A DNA stretch of 46,717 bases from contig QHYI01000123.1 of NCBI GenBank assembly GCA_003223245.1, forward strand, positions 1 to 46,717, read 5' to 3'. Within the stretch, counting starts at the first letter, position 1. Every line of letters begins with the position of its first letter. Below the pieces are notes generated by a model that had not been told where the DNA came from, did no database searches, and saw only the letters and a list, made by a program, of their open reading frames with translations. Positions 13,138-18,711 of the stretch are shown in pieces. The DNA comes from Acidobacteriota bacterium (GTDB lineage Bacteria; Acidobacteriota; Terriglobia; Acidiferrales; UBA7541). Made by a program: the position numbers and the translations under genes.

Positions 13138-14595
13138 TTACTTTGTGAAGCGCACGCTGTCGAGAATGGCGTTGAAGGTCTTGTCGTACTTTTCGTACGC
13201 AGACTGCGGAGCCACGCAAACGAAGGAGACCAACCCTTCGGGACGCAGCGTGGTGACGATCCAATCGGTTTCCTGCCCGCCCACGGGAGAATCGTTGCTG
13301 AGATACGTCGCGAGGCCGGGCTGGCCGTTTAGGCGCACGCGCTCCGGCTGGCGCGTGATTTTCATGTTGGGATTCGACTTTTGAAGTTCCTGAATGGCCT
13401 GCTGCGTGGCGTTGTTTAGGGCGTCCCAATCATTGGAATCGCCTGTGGCCTGGGCCACGCTCACGATAAGCCCGTACGCAAGCGCTGCATGACCCGTGCC
13501 ATCGTCCACCACACCGTCTTCGGGAGCGAACGAAACGTTGTTGCCGCCGTTGTCGGCATACTTCTTCCAGTTGTCCGGATATTTCAGCGTGTAGGCACTC
13601 GCCTGATAAGCAGTGAAATTCCCCGAAGGAGGCGCCGGAGGTTTTGCCGCTCCCCGAGCGGCCGGCGTCAGCTTCTTCGCCGCCGGCAACGCCAGCACTT
13701 CGCGCTTGATGGCTTCGAATTCTGAAGAATCGCGCTTGGCGTTTGGCGGAGCCCCGCCTAGCTTGTCGATTTCCTCCTCTACGCGTTCTACGCGGTGCTC
13801 GGGGCTCGGATGGTCGGAGAAAAACTCCGGCGGATTCTTCCCTTTCCCCTCTGCTTCGAGCTTCTCGAAGAACTGCGCCATTGCCCGCGGATCGTAGCCG
13901 CTATCGTAAAGCACCTGCGTGCCCATCACGTCCGCCTGCGATTCGGCGCTTCGCGAGTAGCGCAGCAACACGCCCCCGGCGGCAAACGCGCCTAGCTTGC
14001 TCAAAAGCGCCCCACCGGTAGAGCCGCCAAGGATTCCATCGGCAATTCCAAGAACGCCGTTCGCAAACTCGGCTTTTGAGGCTTGATTTGTGCCGTGGCG
14101 CAGCGCAACGTGCGAAAGTTCATGCGCCATCACCGCAGCGAGCTGCGCTTCATTGTCGGCTACCTCGATGGCTCCGCGGTTGATGAACACATAACCGCCG
14201 GGCAAGGCAAACGCGTTGATGGCCTTGTCATTCACGCAATGAAATTCGAAAGGATACGGTACTCCGCCAGTAGGGAGCTTGGCTGCCAGCCGCATTCCGA
14301 GTTGCGTTAGATAAGCGTCGACTTTGGGCGCATTGCAGAGAGGCAATTGTCTCTCTGCATCGGTCGCGGCTTGCTTGCCCAACTGGATGTCTTGTTGCGG
14401 GGTGAACATGTTCCAGCCCGGCTTGAGCACGGTGCGCTGCGCAGATGCCGCCGGCGCGAGCAGAAAGCACAAAAGGGCTAGGCAGGCCCAGGTGGCATGG
14501 CCCCCGAGAGGCTGCCACGCCCGGAAGGAGCCCCTTCCTAACCCATATTCTTTCTTACTCCGCGCGTTCACACATGCCTCCGTAAACCGTTCCAA
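13138..14595 (-). CDS. Secreted M48-family zinc metalloprotease with C-terminal domain
   Basis: A 485-residue exported protein with a signal segment at about residues 33-53 (CLALLCFLLAPAASAQ); the true start may be later than 14595. The M48 peptidase domain (about 60-290) has the zinc motif HELSH at 158-162, in VMAHELSHVALRHG. The third ligand Glu is in SAESQADVMG, and DHPSPEHRVERV matches the M48C tail. Such BepA/Loi-like proteases act in the periplasm on misfolded outer-membrane proteins. After a Pro/Ala linker (about 315-345) comes a separate domain of roughly 140 residues (YTLKYPDNWKKYA, then ETDWIVTTLRPEG) that resembles PsbP-like or DUF1795-type folds; that identity is a guess. Confidence 0.88.
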   Translation of the reverse strand: MERFTEACVNARSKKEYGLGRGSFRAWQPLGGHATWACLALLCFLLAPAASAQRTVLKPGWNMFTPQQDIQLGKQAATDAERQLPLCNAPKVDAYLTQLGMRLAAKLPTGGVPYPFEFHCVNDKAINAFALPGGYVFINRGAIEVADNEAQLAAVMAHELSHVALRHGTNQASKAEFANGVLGIADGILGGSTGGALLSKLGAFAAGGVLLRYSRSAESQADVMGTQVLYDSGYDPRAMAQFFEKLEAEGKGKNPPEFFSDHPSPEHRVERVEEEIDKLGGAPPNAKRDSSEFEAIKREVLALPAAKKLTPAARGAAKPPAPPSGNFTAYQASAYTLKYPDNWKKYADNGGNNVSFAPEDGVVDDGTGHAALAYGLIVSVAQATGDSNDWDALNNATQQAIQELQKSNPNMKITRQPERVRLNGQPGLATYLSNDSPVGGQETDWIVTTLRPEGLVSFVCVAPQSAYEKYDKTFNAILDSVRFTK

Positions 14596-14650: not shown

Positions 14651-14687
14651 AAAAAGAAAAAGCCCAGGTGGCTGGGACACCCGGGCT
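14651..14687 (-). terminator. Rho-independent terminator after the downstream AAA+ gene
   Basis: On the reverse strand AGCCCGGGTG pairs with CACCTGGGCT (10 bases, one G-T pair) around a 7-base loop, followed by TTTTTCTTTTTG. It lies 29 bases after the stop of the second AAA+ gene and before the M48 gene, so the protease is a separate unit. Confidence 0.85.
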
Positions 14688-14715: not shown

Positions 14716-15876
14716 TTAGCGAGCGACGCGCGGCGACGGCTCCGGAGAAGGGGTCGTGTTCGGCGCCTCGGCTGCCTTGCTTCGCGCGGCAACGGCGCGC
14801 GCAGCCGGCGGCGGCTCGGGCTTACGTGCCGGAATCGCGAGATTTTCGCCTTCACGGACAAAGGTCAAACGATTCTGTTCTTTGTTCCAGTCGATACAAA
14901 TGAGGTCGCCCAGGTGCACCTGCTCCGTGGCGAGCAGGTTGGCCAGGGGATAGACCACGTGGCGCTCAATGGCCCGCTTCAAGTGGCGCGCGCCGTAGCG
15001 CTGATCCGTGCCTTCCTCGAGCAGAAAATTGCGGCCCGGCTGGGTCACGCGGAAGAGGAACTGCCCTTTGGCAGTTTCCAGAACCCGCTCCTGCACCTGG
15101 GCCAGCTCAATTTCAAGAACTTGCTCCAATTGTTCGCGACGGAGAGGATGAAATACCACCACTTTGTCCAGGCGGTTCATGAATTCTGGCGAGAATTTGC
15201 GCCGCGCGGCTTCGACGGCCGTGCGCTCTACTTTTTGATCCAGTCCGGAGGCCGGTTTGTCGGCTGGCTGGACAAAGCCCATGCCACCCTGCATCAGTTG
15301 CGTAATCTCGCCGCCGCCAAGGTTCGAGGTCAGGAAAATGACCGTTTGGGAAAGGTCGACGCGGCGGTTATCGCCCAGTGTCAGCGTGGCCTTGTCCAAC
15401 ATACCCAGCAACAATTGCCAGAGAGCGTCGCTGGCCTTCTCGATTTCGTCGAAGAGCAGGAAGCTGAGCTTCAGCTTGTCCGTGTGGCAGGCAGCCAAAG
15501 CTTCCTGGGTGATCAAAGGGTGGGTCTCGCGGTGGCCGAGGTAGCCCGGAGGGGAGCCGATGAGCTTGGCAATCTCGTGGGAGTGTTGAAATTCGGCGCA
15601 ATCGACCTTGATGACCGCCCGGGCGTCCCCAAAGAGGATTTCGGCTGCCGCTTCCACGATGCGGGTCTTTCCTGAGCCCGTAGGGCCAAGGAAAAGGAGG
15701 TTGCCTACTGGGCGGCCGGGCGAGTTCAACCCGGCACAAAAGACCTGGTACATATCCACCAGGGACTGTATGCCTTCTTCCTGGCCGACGATCTTGGCGC
15801 GCAAGGACGCATGGAAATCCCGGGTGTCGTTGCTGCGGATACTTGGGTCCAGTTGATGACGAACAGCAGCTCTCAT
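14716..15876 (-). CDS. Single-ring Clp-type AAA+ ATPase, copy 2
   Basis: A AAA+ ATPase closely similar to the copy at 16298-17518; the start at 15876 has AGAAGGGG 8 bases upstream (an earlier in-frame ATG is at 15909). It keeps Walker A GPTGSGKT, the GSPPGYLGH pore loop, Walker B LLFDEIEKA, sensor 1 TSN, an arginine finger in FMNRLDKVV and sensor 2 GARHLKRAIE. At the position of the ClpA/ClpC ClpP-docking loop it reads GMGFVQP. It lacks the Clp N-domain and first ring, so it resembles a lone ClpB/ClpA D2. The C-terminal 50 residues are a Pro/Ala/Arg-rich tail that differs from copy 1. A terminator upstream and a promoter of its own suggest independent expression. Its substrate is unknown. Confidence 0.9.
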   Translation of the reverse strand: MRAAVRHQLDPSIRSNDTRDFHASLRAKIVGQEEGIQSLVDMYQVFCAGLNSPGRPVGNLLFLGPTGSGKTRIVEAAAEILFGDARAVIKVDCAEFQHSHEIAKLIGSPPGYLGHRETHPLITQEALAACHTDKLKLSFLLFDEIEKASDALWQLLLGMLDKATLTLGDNRRVDLSQTVIFLTSNLGGGEITQLMQGGMGFVQPADKPASGLDQKVERTAVEAARRKFSPEFMNRLDKVVVFHPLRREQLEQVLEIELAQVQERVLETAKGQFLFRVTQPGRNFLLEEGTDQRYGARHLKRAIERHVVYPLANLLATEQVHLGDLICIDWNKEQNRLTFVREGENLAIPARKPEPPPAARAVAARSKAAEAPNTTPSPEPSPRVAR

Positions 15877-15939
15877 CGCTTTGCCCCTTCTCCGCGTCTG
15901 TTCCCCCAAACGCGAACGCGCGTCTCAGGCTACGCACGA

Positions 15940-15968
15940 AAAATAAGATAGAGCATGGAGAGTGCCAA
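15940..15968 (-). promoter_or_regulatory. Promoter of AAA+ copy 2
   Basis: On the reverse strand TTGGCA (15963-15968) and TATTTT (15940-15945) are 17 bases apart, about 64 bases before the start at 15876. A GTGCGTAG half-site, like half of the palindrome upstream of the other AAA+ unit, lies immediately downstream of the -10. Confidence 0.5.
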
Positions 15969-16131
15969 TTCTTTTCTGCTTGTTGCTGAGGAGGAAACGC
16001 ACTGGTTTCAGTTAGATACAGGATTTCAAATTTTGTAGCGCGTCTCACTGCTTGAGATTACGCCCCAATTGAGTCAAGAATGAGAGAGCGATGCACAAGA
16101 GCAGAACATTTTGTGTCATGCGGCAAACGAC

Positions 16132-16150
16132 AAAAAGGGGCGGATTCCCC
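16132..16150 (-). terminator. Short terminator after AAA+ copy 1
   Basis: On the reverse strand GGGG-AATCCG-CCCC is followed directly by TTTTT. The stem is only 4 G-C pairs, but the T-run and its place about 150 bases after the copy 1 stop support a terminator. Confidence 0.55.
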
Positions 16151-16297
16151 GTTGCGCCCAGTCGCAGGCTCGAAAATTTCGAAGATGCTTCCTTTGCTCT
16201 TTACTGCGGCGTTCGCAGCCTGGGCTCTTATTGACTCCCCGACTCTCCTCGTCACCAGCTAAAGTCTTACTTTAAGAGATTTGCGCCGTTAAAGGCA

Positions 16298-17518
16298 CTA
16301 CGAATTCGACCGATCCTGCTTCTTGCGGCTCGGCTGCGCCGTGGAAGCCCCACCACCCGACTGGGCCGCGCGCGACTTCCTCTCCTCTGCCACGGTTTCC
16401 TCGGGCAGACTAGCCGATTTGCCGTCGGTCGCTTCGGCGCCCGCGGCAGCCGCTCCAGCTTTTCTTGCGGCTGGCTCCACAAGGGCCCCCTCACCTTCGC
16501 GCACGAAAGTGAGCCGGTTGTTGGTCTTGTCCCAATCAATGCATACCAAATCGCCCAAATTCACTTGATCGGTGGCCAAAAGGTTGGCCAACGGATAAAC
16601 GACATGGCGTTCTATGGCGCGCTTCAAGTGCCGCGCTCCGTAGCGTTGGTCAGTGCCTTCCTGTAGCAGGAAATCGCGGCCCGCAGGAGTTACGCGAAAG
16701 AGAAACTGTCCCTTGGCGGTGTCCAACACGCGCTGCTGCACTTGGCCCAGTTCGATGTCCAGCACTTCCTGCAACTGATCTTTCCGGAGGGGATGAAACA
16801 CTACAACTTTATCTAGACGGTTCATGAATTCGGGGGAGAACTTGCGTCGCGCCGCTTCGACGGCGGTGCGCTCTACCTTTTCGTCCAGTCCGCTTGCCGG
16901 TTTGTCTTTCGGCTGAATAAAGCCCATGCCGCCTTCCATCAATTCGGCGATTTCCCCGCCGCCCAGGTTGGAGGTGAGAAAAATGACCGTTTTGGACAAG
17001 TCCACCTTGCGATTGTCGCCAAGCGTCAACGTGGCTTTGTCCAGAATGCCCAGCAGCAACTGCCACAAAGCGTCGCTGGCCTTTTCTATTTCATCGAAGA
17101 GCAAAAAGCTGAGTTTCAGCTTGTCGGTGTGGCAGGCCGCCAGGGTCTCCTGAGTGATCAGCGGATGGGTTTCCCGGTGTCCCAGATAGCCTGGAGGCGA
17201 GCCAATCAGCTTGGCAATCTCGTGAGAGTGTTGAAACTCCGCGCAATCCACCTTAATGACCGCGCGCGCTTCTACAAAGAGGATTTCGGCGGCCGCTTCC
17301 ACAATACGCGTCTTTCCGGAACCGGTTGGACCGAGAAACAGCAGGTTCCCCACCGGGCGGCCGGGGGAATTCAAGCCCGCGCGGAAAACTTGATACAGGT
17401 CGACGAGCGCCTGCACCGCCTCTTCCTGGCCCACAATCTTCGAACGGAGCGCGGCCTGAAAATCGACCGTTTCCGCGCTGCGCTTATTCGGATCGAGAGA
17501 AAGGGTGTAGTCGCTCAT
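16298..17518 (-). CDS. Single-ring Clp-type AAA+ ATPase, copy 1
   Basis: A 406-residue AAA+ protein of the ClpA/ClpB D2 type. Walker A GPTGSGKT is at 63-70, the aromatic pore loop GYLG at 110-113, Walker B LLFDE at 139-143, sensor 1 TSN at 182-184, arginine finger R234 and sensor 2 GARHLKR at 294-300, followed by the C-terminal small domain. Residues 198-200 (MGF, in GGMGFIQP) align with the IGL/VGF loops by which ClpA and ClpC bind ClpP. There is no N-domain or first ring. The last 60 residues are low-complexity and charged. It follows the 144-residue gene by 9 bases, so the two form an operon. A polypeptide-threading role is inferred from the pore loop; the true partner is unknown. Confidence 0.9.
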   Translation of the reverse strand: MSDYTLSLDPNKRSAETVDFQAALRSKIVGQEEAVQALVDLYQVFRAGLNSPGRPVGNLLFLGPTGSGKTRIVEAAAEILFVEARAVIKVDCAEFQHSHEIAKLIGSPPGYLGHRETHPLITQETLAACHTDKLKLSFLLFDEIEKASDALWQLLLGILDKATLTLGDNRKVDLSKTVIFLTSNLGGGEIAELMEGGMGFIQPKDKPASGLDEKVERTAVEAARRKFSPEFMNRLDKVVVFHPLRKDQLQEVLDIELGQVQQRVLDTAKGQFLFRVTPAGRDFLLQEGTDQRYGARHLKRAIERHVVYPLANLLATDQVNLGDLVCIDWDKTNNRLTFVREGEGALVEPAARKAGAAAAGAEATDGKSASLPEETVAEERKSRAAQSGGGASTAQPSRKKQDRSNS

Positions 17519-17527
17519 AACTGCCTC

Positions 17528-17962
17528 CTAGCGAACCCGCCCGTGCGAGTTGCCATACCGCCCGCGTCCTCGGTCAAACTGTTCCAATTTGACCTGGATG
17601 GTCGACTGCAGGAGCCGCAACTGCATCAGCAGCTCCCTTGCCACCAGGGGCGATCCTGAAATTCCGAGCAGCGGCGGAAACACATCCGCCAATTCAAGAT
17701 TGAGCGTACGAAGAGAGGAAACAAGTTTTTGGACCGCCGGAGAGTGGGGATCCGCCAGGTCCGCGGAGTGGTTGCACTGCTCACGCAGAGCTCTCCAATT
17801 GAGCTCCACAAACGGATGTTTCTTCGAAACTTCCTTGACAACCTCCTCGGTAATGCGCGCACGCTGTCCCAGCCGCGCGAGATGCAATTGCTGCACTTTT
17901 CCGCCGCGGCGCACATTGTGCACCAGATAGAAGGAATTCCCTTTGCGGCGGACGAAAGCCAT
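17528..17962 (-). CDS. Small protein of unknown function, first gene of the AAA+ operon
   Basis: A 144-residue soluble protein with no signal or membrane segment. Residues 1-35 (MAFVRRKGNSFYLVHNVRRGG, then KVQQLHLARLGQ) look like the small beta-hairpin module seen at the start of some IS1634-type transposases and stand-alone small proteins, where a Lys/Arg-rich strand is followed by Y-L-V-x-N. The rest is helical: a KHPFVELNWRALRE segment and a long amphipathic stretch (about 75-130) that could form a coiled coil. The C-terminus is Gly/Arg-rich (DRGRGRYGNSHGRVR), as in nucleic-acid binders. There is no transposase catalytic domain. It may be an adaptor or substrate-recognition partner for the ATPase encoded 9 bases downstream; that is inference. 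Confidence 0.8.
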   Translation of the reverse strand: MAFVRRKGNSFYLVHNVRRGGKVQQLHLARLGQRARITEEVVKEVSKKHPFVELNWRALREQCNHSADLADPHSPAVQKLVSSLRTLNLELADVFPPLLGISGSPLVARELLMQLRLLQSTIQVKLEQFDRGRGRYGNSHGRVR

Positions 17963-18363
17963 GACTTACCTCGTCTTAAGCTCCATTCCGTGCGCGTAGT
18001 GTAAACATCTTCCACTACGCTCTGCAATATTAGACACAGAATTTCATCAAAAGTTGCACCTTATCAGTAACGCCTTCACCTGAAACATGCTAGCGGTTAT
18101 CACCCTCAATTCTTCTCTAATTTTCATCGATTTCGGTGCCTTCTTACTTGTTGTTCCGCAATCTGTCTGTCCTTTTTCTGCACATTCCCCGCTGATTCGA
18201 TGCGCAGGAAATAGGAAATACGCCTTGATTCTCCCTAGGTCCGCAACAGCGGCTACTCATTAAACCCGGCTGCGGCACTTTTCTCTTGTTCTTCGGAGGG
18301 GCTCAAACCTACCATGACGATGCCCTCGATTGTTGGCGATTTCGACTCAGGAGTCACGGCAAA
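17963..18363. other. Divergent intergenic region
   Basis: About 400 bases without a convincing gene, between the reverse AAA+ operon and the forward alkyltransferase-like gene. It contains the palindrome-covered promoter at 17994-18027. The stretch 18040-18300 is AT-richer than its surroundings and shows no clear structure; an in-frame start at 18286 for the ATL gene is possible but less likely than 18364. Confidence 0.6.
17994..18027 (-). promoter_or_regulatory. Promoter with overlapping operator-like palindrome, AAA+ operon
   Basis: On the reverse strand TTGCAG (18022-18027) and TTACAC (17999-18004) are 17 bases apart. A perfect inverted repeat GCGTAGT-N13-ACTACGC (17994-18000 and 18014-18020; arm centres 20 bases apart) covers the -10 and spacer. 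This is the geometry of a dimeric repressor site. The regulator is not identifiable here. Confidence 0.55.
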
Positions 18364-18711
18364 ATGTCATGGGATCCCGTCTATCGTCTGGTACAACGAA
18401 TTCCTCGCGGAAAGGTTCTAACGTACGGAGGGTTGGCTAAGGCTCTGCGCTTGCCTGGCGGAGCGCGCACGGCTGGACGCGCCATGGCCGCCACCCCTTC
18501 GGGAAAAGGCATTCCGTGGCACCGCGTGATTGGCGATCGCGGGAAAATCCTCATTCGCGGGCCACATGCTTTGCTCCAAAAGAAGCTCCTTGAAAGCGAA
18601 GGCGTACCCGTCGTCGAATTTCGTGTCGACCTGAAACGCCACTTCTGGCGGCCCTCCCAAAAACGCAAATCGAAAGCCGCTGCTCCGCGAAAGCGCTCTC
18701 CTCGAGTATAA
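18364..18711 (+). CDS. Alkyltransferase-like protein (MGMT/ATL family)
   Basis: A 115-residue protein with the DNA-binding fold of O6-alkylguanine-DNA alkyltransferases: YRLVQRIPRGKVLTYGGLAKAL, GGARTAGRAMAATP and IPWHRVIGDRGKI. The active-site PCHR is PWHR here (Trp at residue 52), the mark of ATL proteins. These cannot remove the alkyl group but flip and flag O6-alkylguanine for nucleotide excision repair. The start at 18364 (MSWDPVYRLV) matches the family and has GGAG 10 bases upstream. The C-terminal 25 residues are Lys/Arg-rich, probably adding DNA affinity. It stands alone and converges on the ADOP permease gene. Confidence 0.93.
   Translation: MSWDPVYRLVQRIPRGKVLTYGGLAKALRLPGGARTAGRAMAATPSGKGIPWHRVIGDRGKILIRGPHALLQKKLLESEGVPVVEFRVDLKRHFWRPSQKRKSKAAAPRKRSPRV

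Follow-up and report, generated by a model that had tools for sequence, protein, structure and literature searches.

The stretch analyzed here (the window) comprises the 46,717 nucleotides of contig QHYI01000123.1 from an Acidobacteriota genome (GenBank assembly GCA_003223245.1; 6.31 Mb in 237 contigs) whose nearest named relatives are 'gp2' Acidobacteria bins. On its minus strand lie the genes for a small protein of 144 amino acids (aa) and for two similar AAA+ ATPases, here designated AAA1 and AAA2, which share 81% identity over 379 residues; this trio, pointed out in an earlier note made from the letters of the sequence, is present as placed there. By their sequences the two ATPases are single-ring members of the Clp/Hsp100 group that probably serve the protease ClpP. 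The locus is most likely organized as a two-gene unit, formed by the small gene and AAA1, plus an AAA2 gene with promoter elements of its own, and no clear three-gene operon is apparent. The genes and their junction are the following:

17962-17528, minus strand: open reading frame of the small protein (144 aa), proposed DNA-binding autoregulator
17524-17530, minus strand: overlap, read in the sequence, between the AGGAGG ribosome-binding site of AAA1 and the TAG that ends the small gene
17518-16298, minus strand: open reading frame of AAA1 (406 aa), single-ring Clp ATPase of D2 type by domain and motif matches
15876-14716, minus strand: open reading frame of AAA2 (~386 aa), Clp ATPase with one ring; by domains and tree, a tandem duplicate of AAA1

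The start codon of AAA1 (ATG) is located 9 nt past the stop codon of the small gene, and this short gap, together with the overlap between stop codon and ribosome-binding site, suggests that both genes are probably co-translated through translational coupling. The AAA2 frame was listed from a TTG at 15909. We prefer the ATG at 15876 (386 aa), because the same MRAAV...LDP sequence opens at an ATG in two relatives lacking the small gene (L056 and L057; read by eye); with this start, 421 nt separate the stop of AAA1 from the start of AAA2.

A domain search identified a single stretch of AAA_2 plus ClpB_D2-small domains in each ATPase and no match to a Clp N-domain family in either, in agreement with the earlier description of one ring each and no Clp N-domain. 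The nearest NCBIfam models were those of double-ring proteins such as ClpB and ClpA, matched in their D2 half, with both ATPases scoring far below all curated cut-offs. Having one AAA_2 stretch and no Clp_N match, AAA1 and AAA2 fall outside the ClpA/ClpB/ClpC definition of two AAA rings plus a Clp N domain. Neither protein matched zf-C4_ClpX, a domain that is present in the ClpX of the same genome, and AAA1 reached 16.7 bits against the ClpX equivalog TIGR00382, whose cut-off is 370.75. Alignment of the 94 homologs longer than 300 aa, out of 101 cluster members, revealed a complete Walker A motif in 93 of them (the remaining row is cut), the pore motif GYLG also in 93, and the Walker B, arginine-finger (FSPEFMNR) and sensor 2 (YGAR) motifs in all 94. 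On these sequence criteria AAA1 and AAA2 are Clp/Hsp100 AAA+ proteins of the D2 type with intact ATPase and pore motifs; the system belongs to the Clp/Hsp100 kind and does not constitute a new kind of machine.

The strongest clue to the function of the ATPases, not remarked in the earlier note, is a predicted docking loop for ClpP:

16919-16927, minus strand: Met-Gly-Phe of AAA1 (residues 198-200), predicted ClpP-docking loop, by alignment
15274-15282, minus strand: Met-Gly-Phe of AAA2, predicted ClpP-docking loop, by alignment

This loop lies after sensor 1 (TSNLG) and before the arginine-finger motif; its flanks vary, and within it an invariant Gly-Phe pair follows a residue that is hydrophobic or aromatic. 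The xGF tripeptide was found in 94 out of 94 aligned homologs (MGF in 72, LGF in 14, YGF in 7 and FGF in 1), and 19 distant homologs from other families of the phylum carry IGF, LGF, MGF or FGF. A hydrophobic-G-F/L motif was observed in all 143 single-ring domains, defined as those in open frames of up to 527 aa (140 identified by script and 3 by eye, duplicates included). According to PMC10149685, LGF loops dock into ClpP, are absent from ClpB and are useful as a sequence marker. Within the genome of the window, LGF occupies the docking-loop position both in ClpX, identified above its NCBIfam cut-off, and in an 831-aa double-ring protein of the ClpA/ClpC type, for which the ClpC label is ours, as it reached no NCBIfam cut-off (best scores 932 bits for ClpB and 808 bits for ClpA). 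The ClpB of this genome, above its cut-off, has no tripeptide at that position, and a single ClpP was found, adjoining ClpX. Altogether, it is quite probable that AAA1 and AAA2 are ClpP-partner unfoldases.

An alternative, which we regard as unlikely, is that AAA1 and AAA2 act as ClpP-independent chaperones or disaggregases in which the GF loop serves another purpose. Such a case is known in human CLPB/SKD3, a Clp ATPase with one D2-type ring that works as a disaggregase independently of ClpP. The ankyrin N-domain of this protein, described in PMC9934407, distinguishes it from AAA1 and AAA2. The D2 domain of ClpB is the best profile match of both ATPases, and their best solved structural relatives are also ClpB proteins. 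In addition, two of the eight ClpB-type D2 domains examined, both from double-ring proteins (L201 and L203), carry IGF or IGL at this place, where ClpB normally has no such tripeptide. This weighs against a role with ClpP, since it implies that the xGF motif by itself is no proof of ClpP partnership. On the other hand, the other six of these domains lack the GF tripeptide, and the position and invariance of the loop fit the ClpA/ClpC type and ClpX, not ClpB.

Like the D2 ring of ClpC/ClpA and like ClpX, AAA1 and AAA2 combine a D2-type core with a GYxG pore loop and a ClpP-facing xGF loop; they differ from ClpA and ClpC in having one ring only, and from ClpX in lacking the N domain and the zinc finger. 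In a tree from which ClpX was left out, most single-ring copies formed a group of their own, apart from ClpC/ClpA, that largely tracks host groups, and AAA2 was placed beside AAA1 within the genus of the window (support 93/77, group of seven), which fits a tandem duplication. The long branches and unsure deep order of this tree, together with the position of one divergent single-ring row (L212) on its ClpB/ClpC side, count against our interpretation of the locus. Rows L204-L213, from other Acidobacteriota, correspond to more divergent single-ring Clp ATPases with 39-49% identity to AAA1 and a hydrophobic-G-F/L loop, the first eight (L204-L211) making up a starred group of the tree.

The partners of ClpP are, to our knowledge, few: ClpX, ClpA, ClpC and ClpE. 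ClpI has recently been proposed as a further one. As presented in PMC10149685, ClpI is likewise a lineage-specific extra Clp class found by sequence, in Actinomycetota, with LGF marking its ClpP partnership; it has two rings plus N and M domains, in contrast with the single-ring, N-domain-less ATPases of Acidobacteriota. No description of a single-ring ClpP-type ATPase in Acidobacteria was found in the open-licence literature searched. If AAA1 and AAA2 do work with ClpP, an N-domain-less single-ring partner would represent the smallest engine of the ClpC type and a new control of regulated proteolysis, in a large, little-studied, soil-dwelling phylum.

The ATPase family is widespread in Acidobacteriota, being present in 40 out of 297 genomes sampled across the phylum, that of the window included (E 1e-75). 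Around 20 distant ATPase copies the neighboring genes change and the small gene is absent. The small protein itself was found in 57 of 101 genomes of relatives, again including that of the window, which belong to three host families; within the 297-genome sample, that of the window was the sole full-length match, with four further matches being weak and partial. An AAA gene lies directly downstream of the small gene and on the same strand in 56 of the 57 genomes, a figure composed of non-overlapping sets: 28 of 30 loci, 20 of 20 further loci, five genomes assessed by coordinates (G020, G041, G049, G055 and G059) and three (G004, G025 and G051) in which the start of the AAA gene follows the small gene and the contig then ends. 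In the remaining genome (G060) the contig ends within the small gene. Many named loci and G-numbered loci are the same genomes, and locus counts contain duplicates, in contrast with genome counts. These results exclude a chance pairing of the small gene and the ATPase gene. The earlier note would have been refuted by homologs of the small gene lying apart from such ATPases in other genomes, and this outcome was not observed. As for the trio as a module, its linkage and conservation were borne out. ATPases of this family reach beyond the small gene and mostly occur in its absence, so that the trio is not a general unit, and AAA2 is preceded by a conserved sigma-54-type promoter of its own.

Searches for defense functions also bear on the nature of the trio. 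The earlier note had recognized here no known toxin-antitoxin, secretion or defense arrangement, and we found no PADLOC system and no toxin, antitoxin or secretion family at cut-off, with general AAA models alone reaching theirs. Kinship with the defense systems Dodola (DolA-DolB) or PDC-M37 could be envisaged, as the PADLOC models of DolB and PDC-M37B match the AAA domain. These matches (best E 3e-22) cover the shared AAA core and are far weaker than that of ClpB (E 3e-71); DolB is matched by AAA1 and AAA2 partially (E 1e-13 and 1e-14, respectively), and the small protein has no PADLOC match, leaving no DolA partner. Gene order is partly conserved, the AAA tree largely tracks host groups, no phage or plasmid AAA copy was found at 60% identity or above (those listed matches that carried a gene name being ClpB), and the small protein was not found in phages or plasmids. 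The confinement of the PADLOC matches to the AAA core and the missing phage or plasmid copies of the small protein led us to disfavor a defense system, which is very improbable.

The region upstream of the small gene contains a palindrome that covers a predicted promoter:

17994-18020 (core 17996-18018), minus strand: palindrome GCGTAGTG-N11-CACTACGC, proposed operator of the small gene and AAA1, from upstream alignment and genome scans
17998-18027, minus strand: sigma-70-like promoter made up of TTGCAG (18027-18022), 18 nt and TACACT (18003-17998), read in the sequence and covered by the palindrome

The arms of the palindrome in the window form 8 perfect pairs, and the sequence GTAGTG-N10/11-CACTAC is present in 48 of 50 upstream regions of the small gene. 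In relatives, inspection by eye placed the palindrome over a promoter of the TTGAC..TACACT type; a consensus promoter scan did not list the sigma-70-like promoter of the window. The 23-bp pattern GTAGTG-N11-CACTAC occurs at exactly one site in the whole genome of the window, and allowing one mismatch added one further site, versus six for the reversed control. Within the host family, 50 of the 51 genomes having the small gene carry the N11 palindrome shortly before it (positions by eye), four family genomes showing extra N11 sites elsewhere. When loci were considered, the palindrome (spacer of 10 or 11 nt) was found in 71 of 74 with the small gene, always 16-90 nt before its start, and in 2 of 47 without it, both corresponding to genome G022. 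Neither a CIRCE heat-shock operator (up to 3 mismatches) nor any Rfam family at gathering threshold was detected in the window. The palindrome is most likely an operator, putatively bound by the small protein.

Several observations weigh against this assignment. The N11 pattern was found in none of the ten family genomes lacking the small gene; this is a weak control, since five of them show no AAA of the family either. Outside the family, a single N11 site was seen in each of seven genomes in which no small gene was found. In G022 the small gene is gone, yet a perfect palindrome, its arms 10 nt apart, still precedes AAA1; in G023, where the small gene has been lost as well, one arm carries a mismatch. 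The palindrome of G022 indicates that another binder may exist or that the loss of the small gene is recent.

The small protein of the window showed no Pfam family above cut-off and no NCBIfam match. Structure prediction with AlphaFold supported the hairpin-like N-terminus noticed earlier, with strands at residues 2-7, 10-19 and 22-32 followed by a helix (block pLDDT 87-93 for residues 1-50); the C-terminal half was predicted to be helical and the tail (residues 134-144) had low confidence, the two models obtained reaching pTM values of 0.44 and 0.47. Residues 1-50 are basic, with 12 K/R vs 3 D/E. Removal of duplicates and of rows not starting at residue 1 left 59 distinct rows of the small protein out of 84, 35 of which were aligned, and in the wider alignment of the protein 17 of 19 invariant residues fell within the first 60 positions. 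The profile of this N-domain matched the N-terminus of a DDE transposase in a single hhalign comparison (probability 89%, 35 columns, E 2.2e-6), and the DDE domain was confirmed in the matched transposase. What the two seem to share is a hairpin domain of the type [F/Y]xLVxxxRxxGKVxQxxLxxLG; unlike these transposases, which we take to be IS1634-like, the small protein has no DDE catalytic domain. When 199 genomes were scanned with the N-domain profile, 23 contained a match, in transposases (weakly), TPR proteins and a family of ~200-350 aa.

Family and structure searches with the small protein gave low-scoring matches. Nine of the 35 homologs matched PF17697 (DUF5543, best E 1.1e-4) and six matched PF23397 (DUF7104, best E 0.006), the best PHROGs match of the small protein had an E of 0.016, and six divergent homologs rescanned gave no family at E 0.01; PF17697, PF23397 and PHROGs were rejected as its family and taken as chance matches. 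No CtsR domain was detected in the small protein or its homologs up to E 1. A search of solved structures (PDB) with the two models yielded no match at E 0.001 or better and none with Z of at least 5. Weak rows included an arm-type integrase (3jtz, Z 3.0) and an AP2 DNA-binding domain (6sy0, Z 2.5), both within background. The best Z of 4.9 leaves no confident match to a solved structure, and the weak rows also comprise ribosomal and unrelated proteins, both of which count against a role in DNA binding. Weighing this evidence, the balance tips slightly toward the small protein being a DNA-binding regulator.

The main competing explanation, to which we give clearly less credit, is that the small protein acts as a substrate adaptor or stand-in N-domain delivering clients to AAA1, in the way that ClpS serves ClpA, with an unrelated regulator binding the palindrome. 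The ClpS gene is likewise located directly upstream of ClpA. An adaptor would be compatible with the immediate adjacency of the small gene and AAA1 in each of the three host families where the small gene occurs, with the lack of an N domain in AAA1, and with the palindrome that persists in G022 after loss of the small gene. On the other side, neither the small protein nor its homologs matched ClpS or any other adaptor family, and no small gene accompanies the 20 distant AAA copies examined. Moreover, within its own genome the palindrome occurs at the small gene and AAA1 alone, as fits a locally encoded binder, and probable relatives of the N-domain occur in transposases. In contrast with ClpS, the private operator and the transposase-like N-domain point to DNA.

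Relatives of the N-domain also appear in other contexts. In L146 and L148 the hairpin N-domain is fused to a longer C-terminal part, giving proteins of 510-540 aa (TPR was matched in L146). Proteins of ~200-350 aa with this N-domain, starting with MPFLRxxRDxRG or similar, were observed in L220-L227, L230 and other Acidobacteriota loci, several of them flanked by a conserved gene starting with SPILVRPVREQ on one side and, on the other, by a gene whose product begins like a secreted protein. L147 also belongs to this size family. No AAA1-like gene was found in the scanned loci of N-domain relatives, the window's own aside, and they gave no functional hint.

AAA2, which has no small gene of its own, is preceded by two conserved elements and followed by a possible terminator:

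15953-15968, minus strand: sigma-54-type promoter of AAA2, TTGGCACTCTCCATGC (GG-N10-GC), conserved upstream element
16043-16057, minus strand: inverted repeat TCTCA-N5-TGAGA, likely activator site, 75 nt upstream of the promoter element
14661-14687, minus strand: terminator-like hairpin after AAA2 and before the M48 peptidase gene, from a scan

The arrangement GG-N10-GC is typical of sigma-54 promoters. The element TGGC-N6-YATGC, which contains it, was found upstream of AAA2 in 28 of 30 genus members (mean of 0.04 in shuffled sequences) and the inverted repeat in 29 of 30, separated by 74-76 nt in all 27 members having both. The composite of the two elements occurs once in the genome of the window and not at all in the reversed control; it was present in 30 of 61 genomes, in at least two places (G024 and G070) not at AAA2. 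This genome has a sigma-54 gene, and we infer that the conserved element drives AAA2 through sigma-54. Read-through from AAA1 into AAA2 may also take place. The promoter elements of AAA2 imply that the trio described earlier most likely comprises two units under two switches. The terminator-like hairpin is weak by itself, as the scan found 7 such hairpins versus 5.4 expected.

Taken together, these features are compatible with the following model, which as a whole (ClpP-feeding ATPases, an autoregulating small protein and a separately switched AAA2) stands about evenly between true and false. AAA1 and AAA2 would deliver substrates to the cell's ClpP, onto which they would dock by their [M/L/I/F/Y]-G-F loop. 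Produced jointly with AAA1, the small protein would bind as a dimer to the palindrome over its own promoter and control the expression of both genes, sensing or setting the level of AAA1. Removal of the regulator by the unfoldase might then complete a feedback loop that responds to stress, and the sigma-54-type switch would provide a second pool of near-identical ATPase, as added capacity in response to a different signal.

Removal of the regulator, the weakest step of this model, is proposed by analogy with CtsR and ClpC. In Bacillus subtilis, ctsR shares an operon with the gene of ClpC, and the CtsR operator is a direct repeat. The likeness lies in a regulator gene within the operon of a Clp ATPase and an operator at the promoter, here recognized by sequence only. 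Repressor release is tied to a Clp ATPase in that system, and the departure of CtsR from its operator requires ClpX, as reported in PMC12634643. Our case differs in that the small protein matches no CtsR family and the operator is palindromic. Degradation of the small protein by the protease in such a feedback is a tentative proposal. Equally speculative is the most far-reaching version, with the single-ring Clp as a further ClpP machine, a transposase-like DNA-binding switch captured in one class and removed by its own protease, and a duplicate under sigma-54, so that two interchangeable ring subunits would answer to two independent signals. The system stands out by its single-ring ClpP-type architecture, by a regulator that has no name as yet and has a private operator, and by the separate control of two near-identical copies.

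Two neighboring genes complete the locus, their frequencies referring to 74 clustered sources (73 loci plus the window). Downstream of AAA2, an M48 peptidase gene (13138-14595, minus strand) belongs to a family found in 33 of the 74 sources; its co-transcription with AAA2 was rejected because of the intervening terminator-like hairpin, and it is treated as conserved neighborhood alone. On the other side, a divergent gene (18286-18711, plus strand) encodes the DNA-binding domain of alkylguanine DNA methyltransferase, and its family is present in 29 of the 74 sources.

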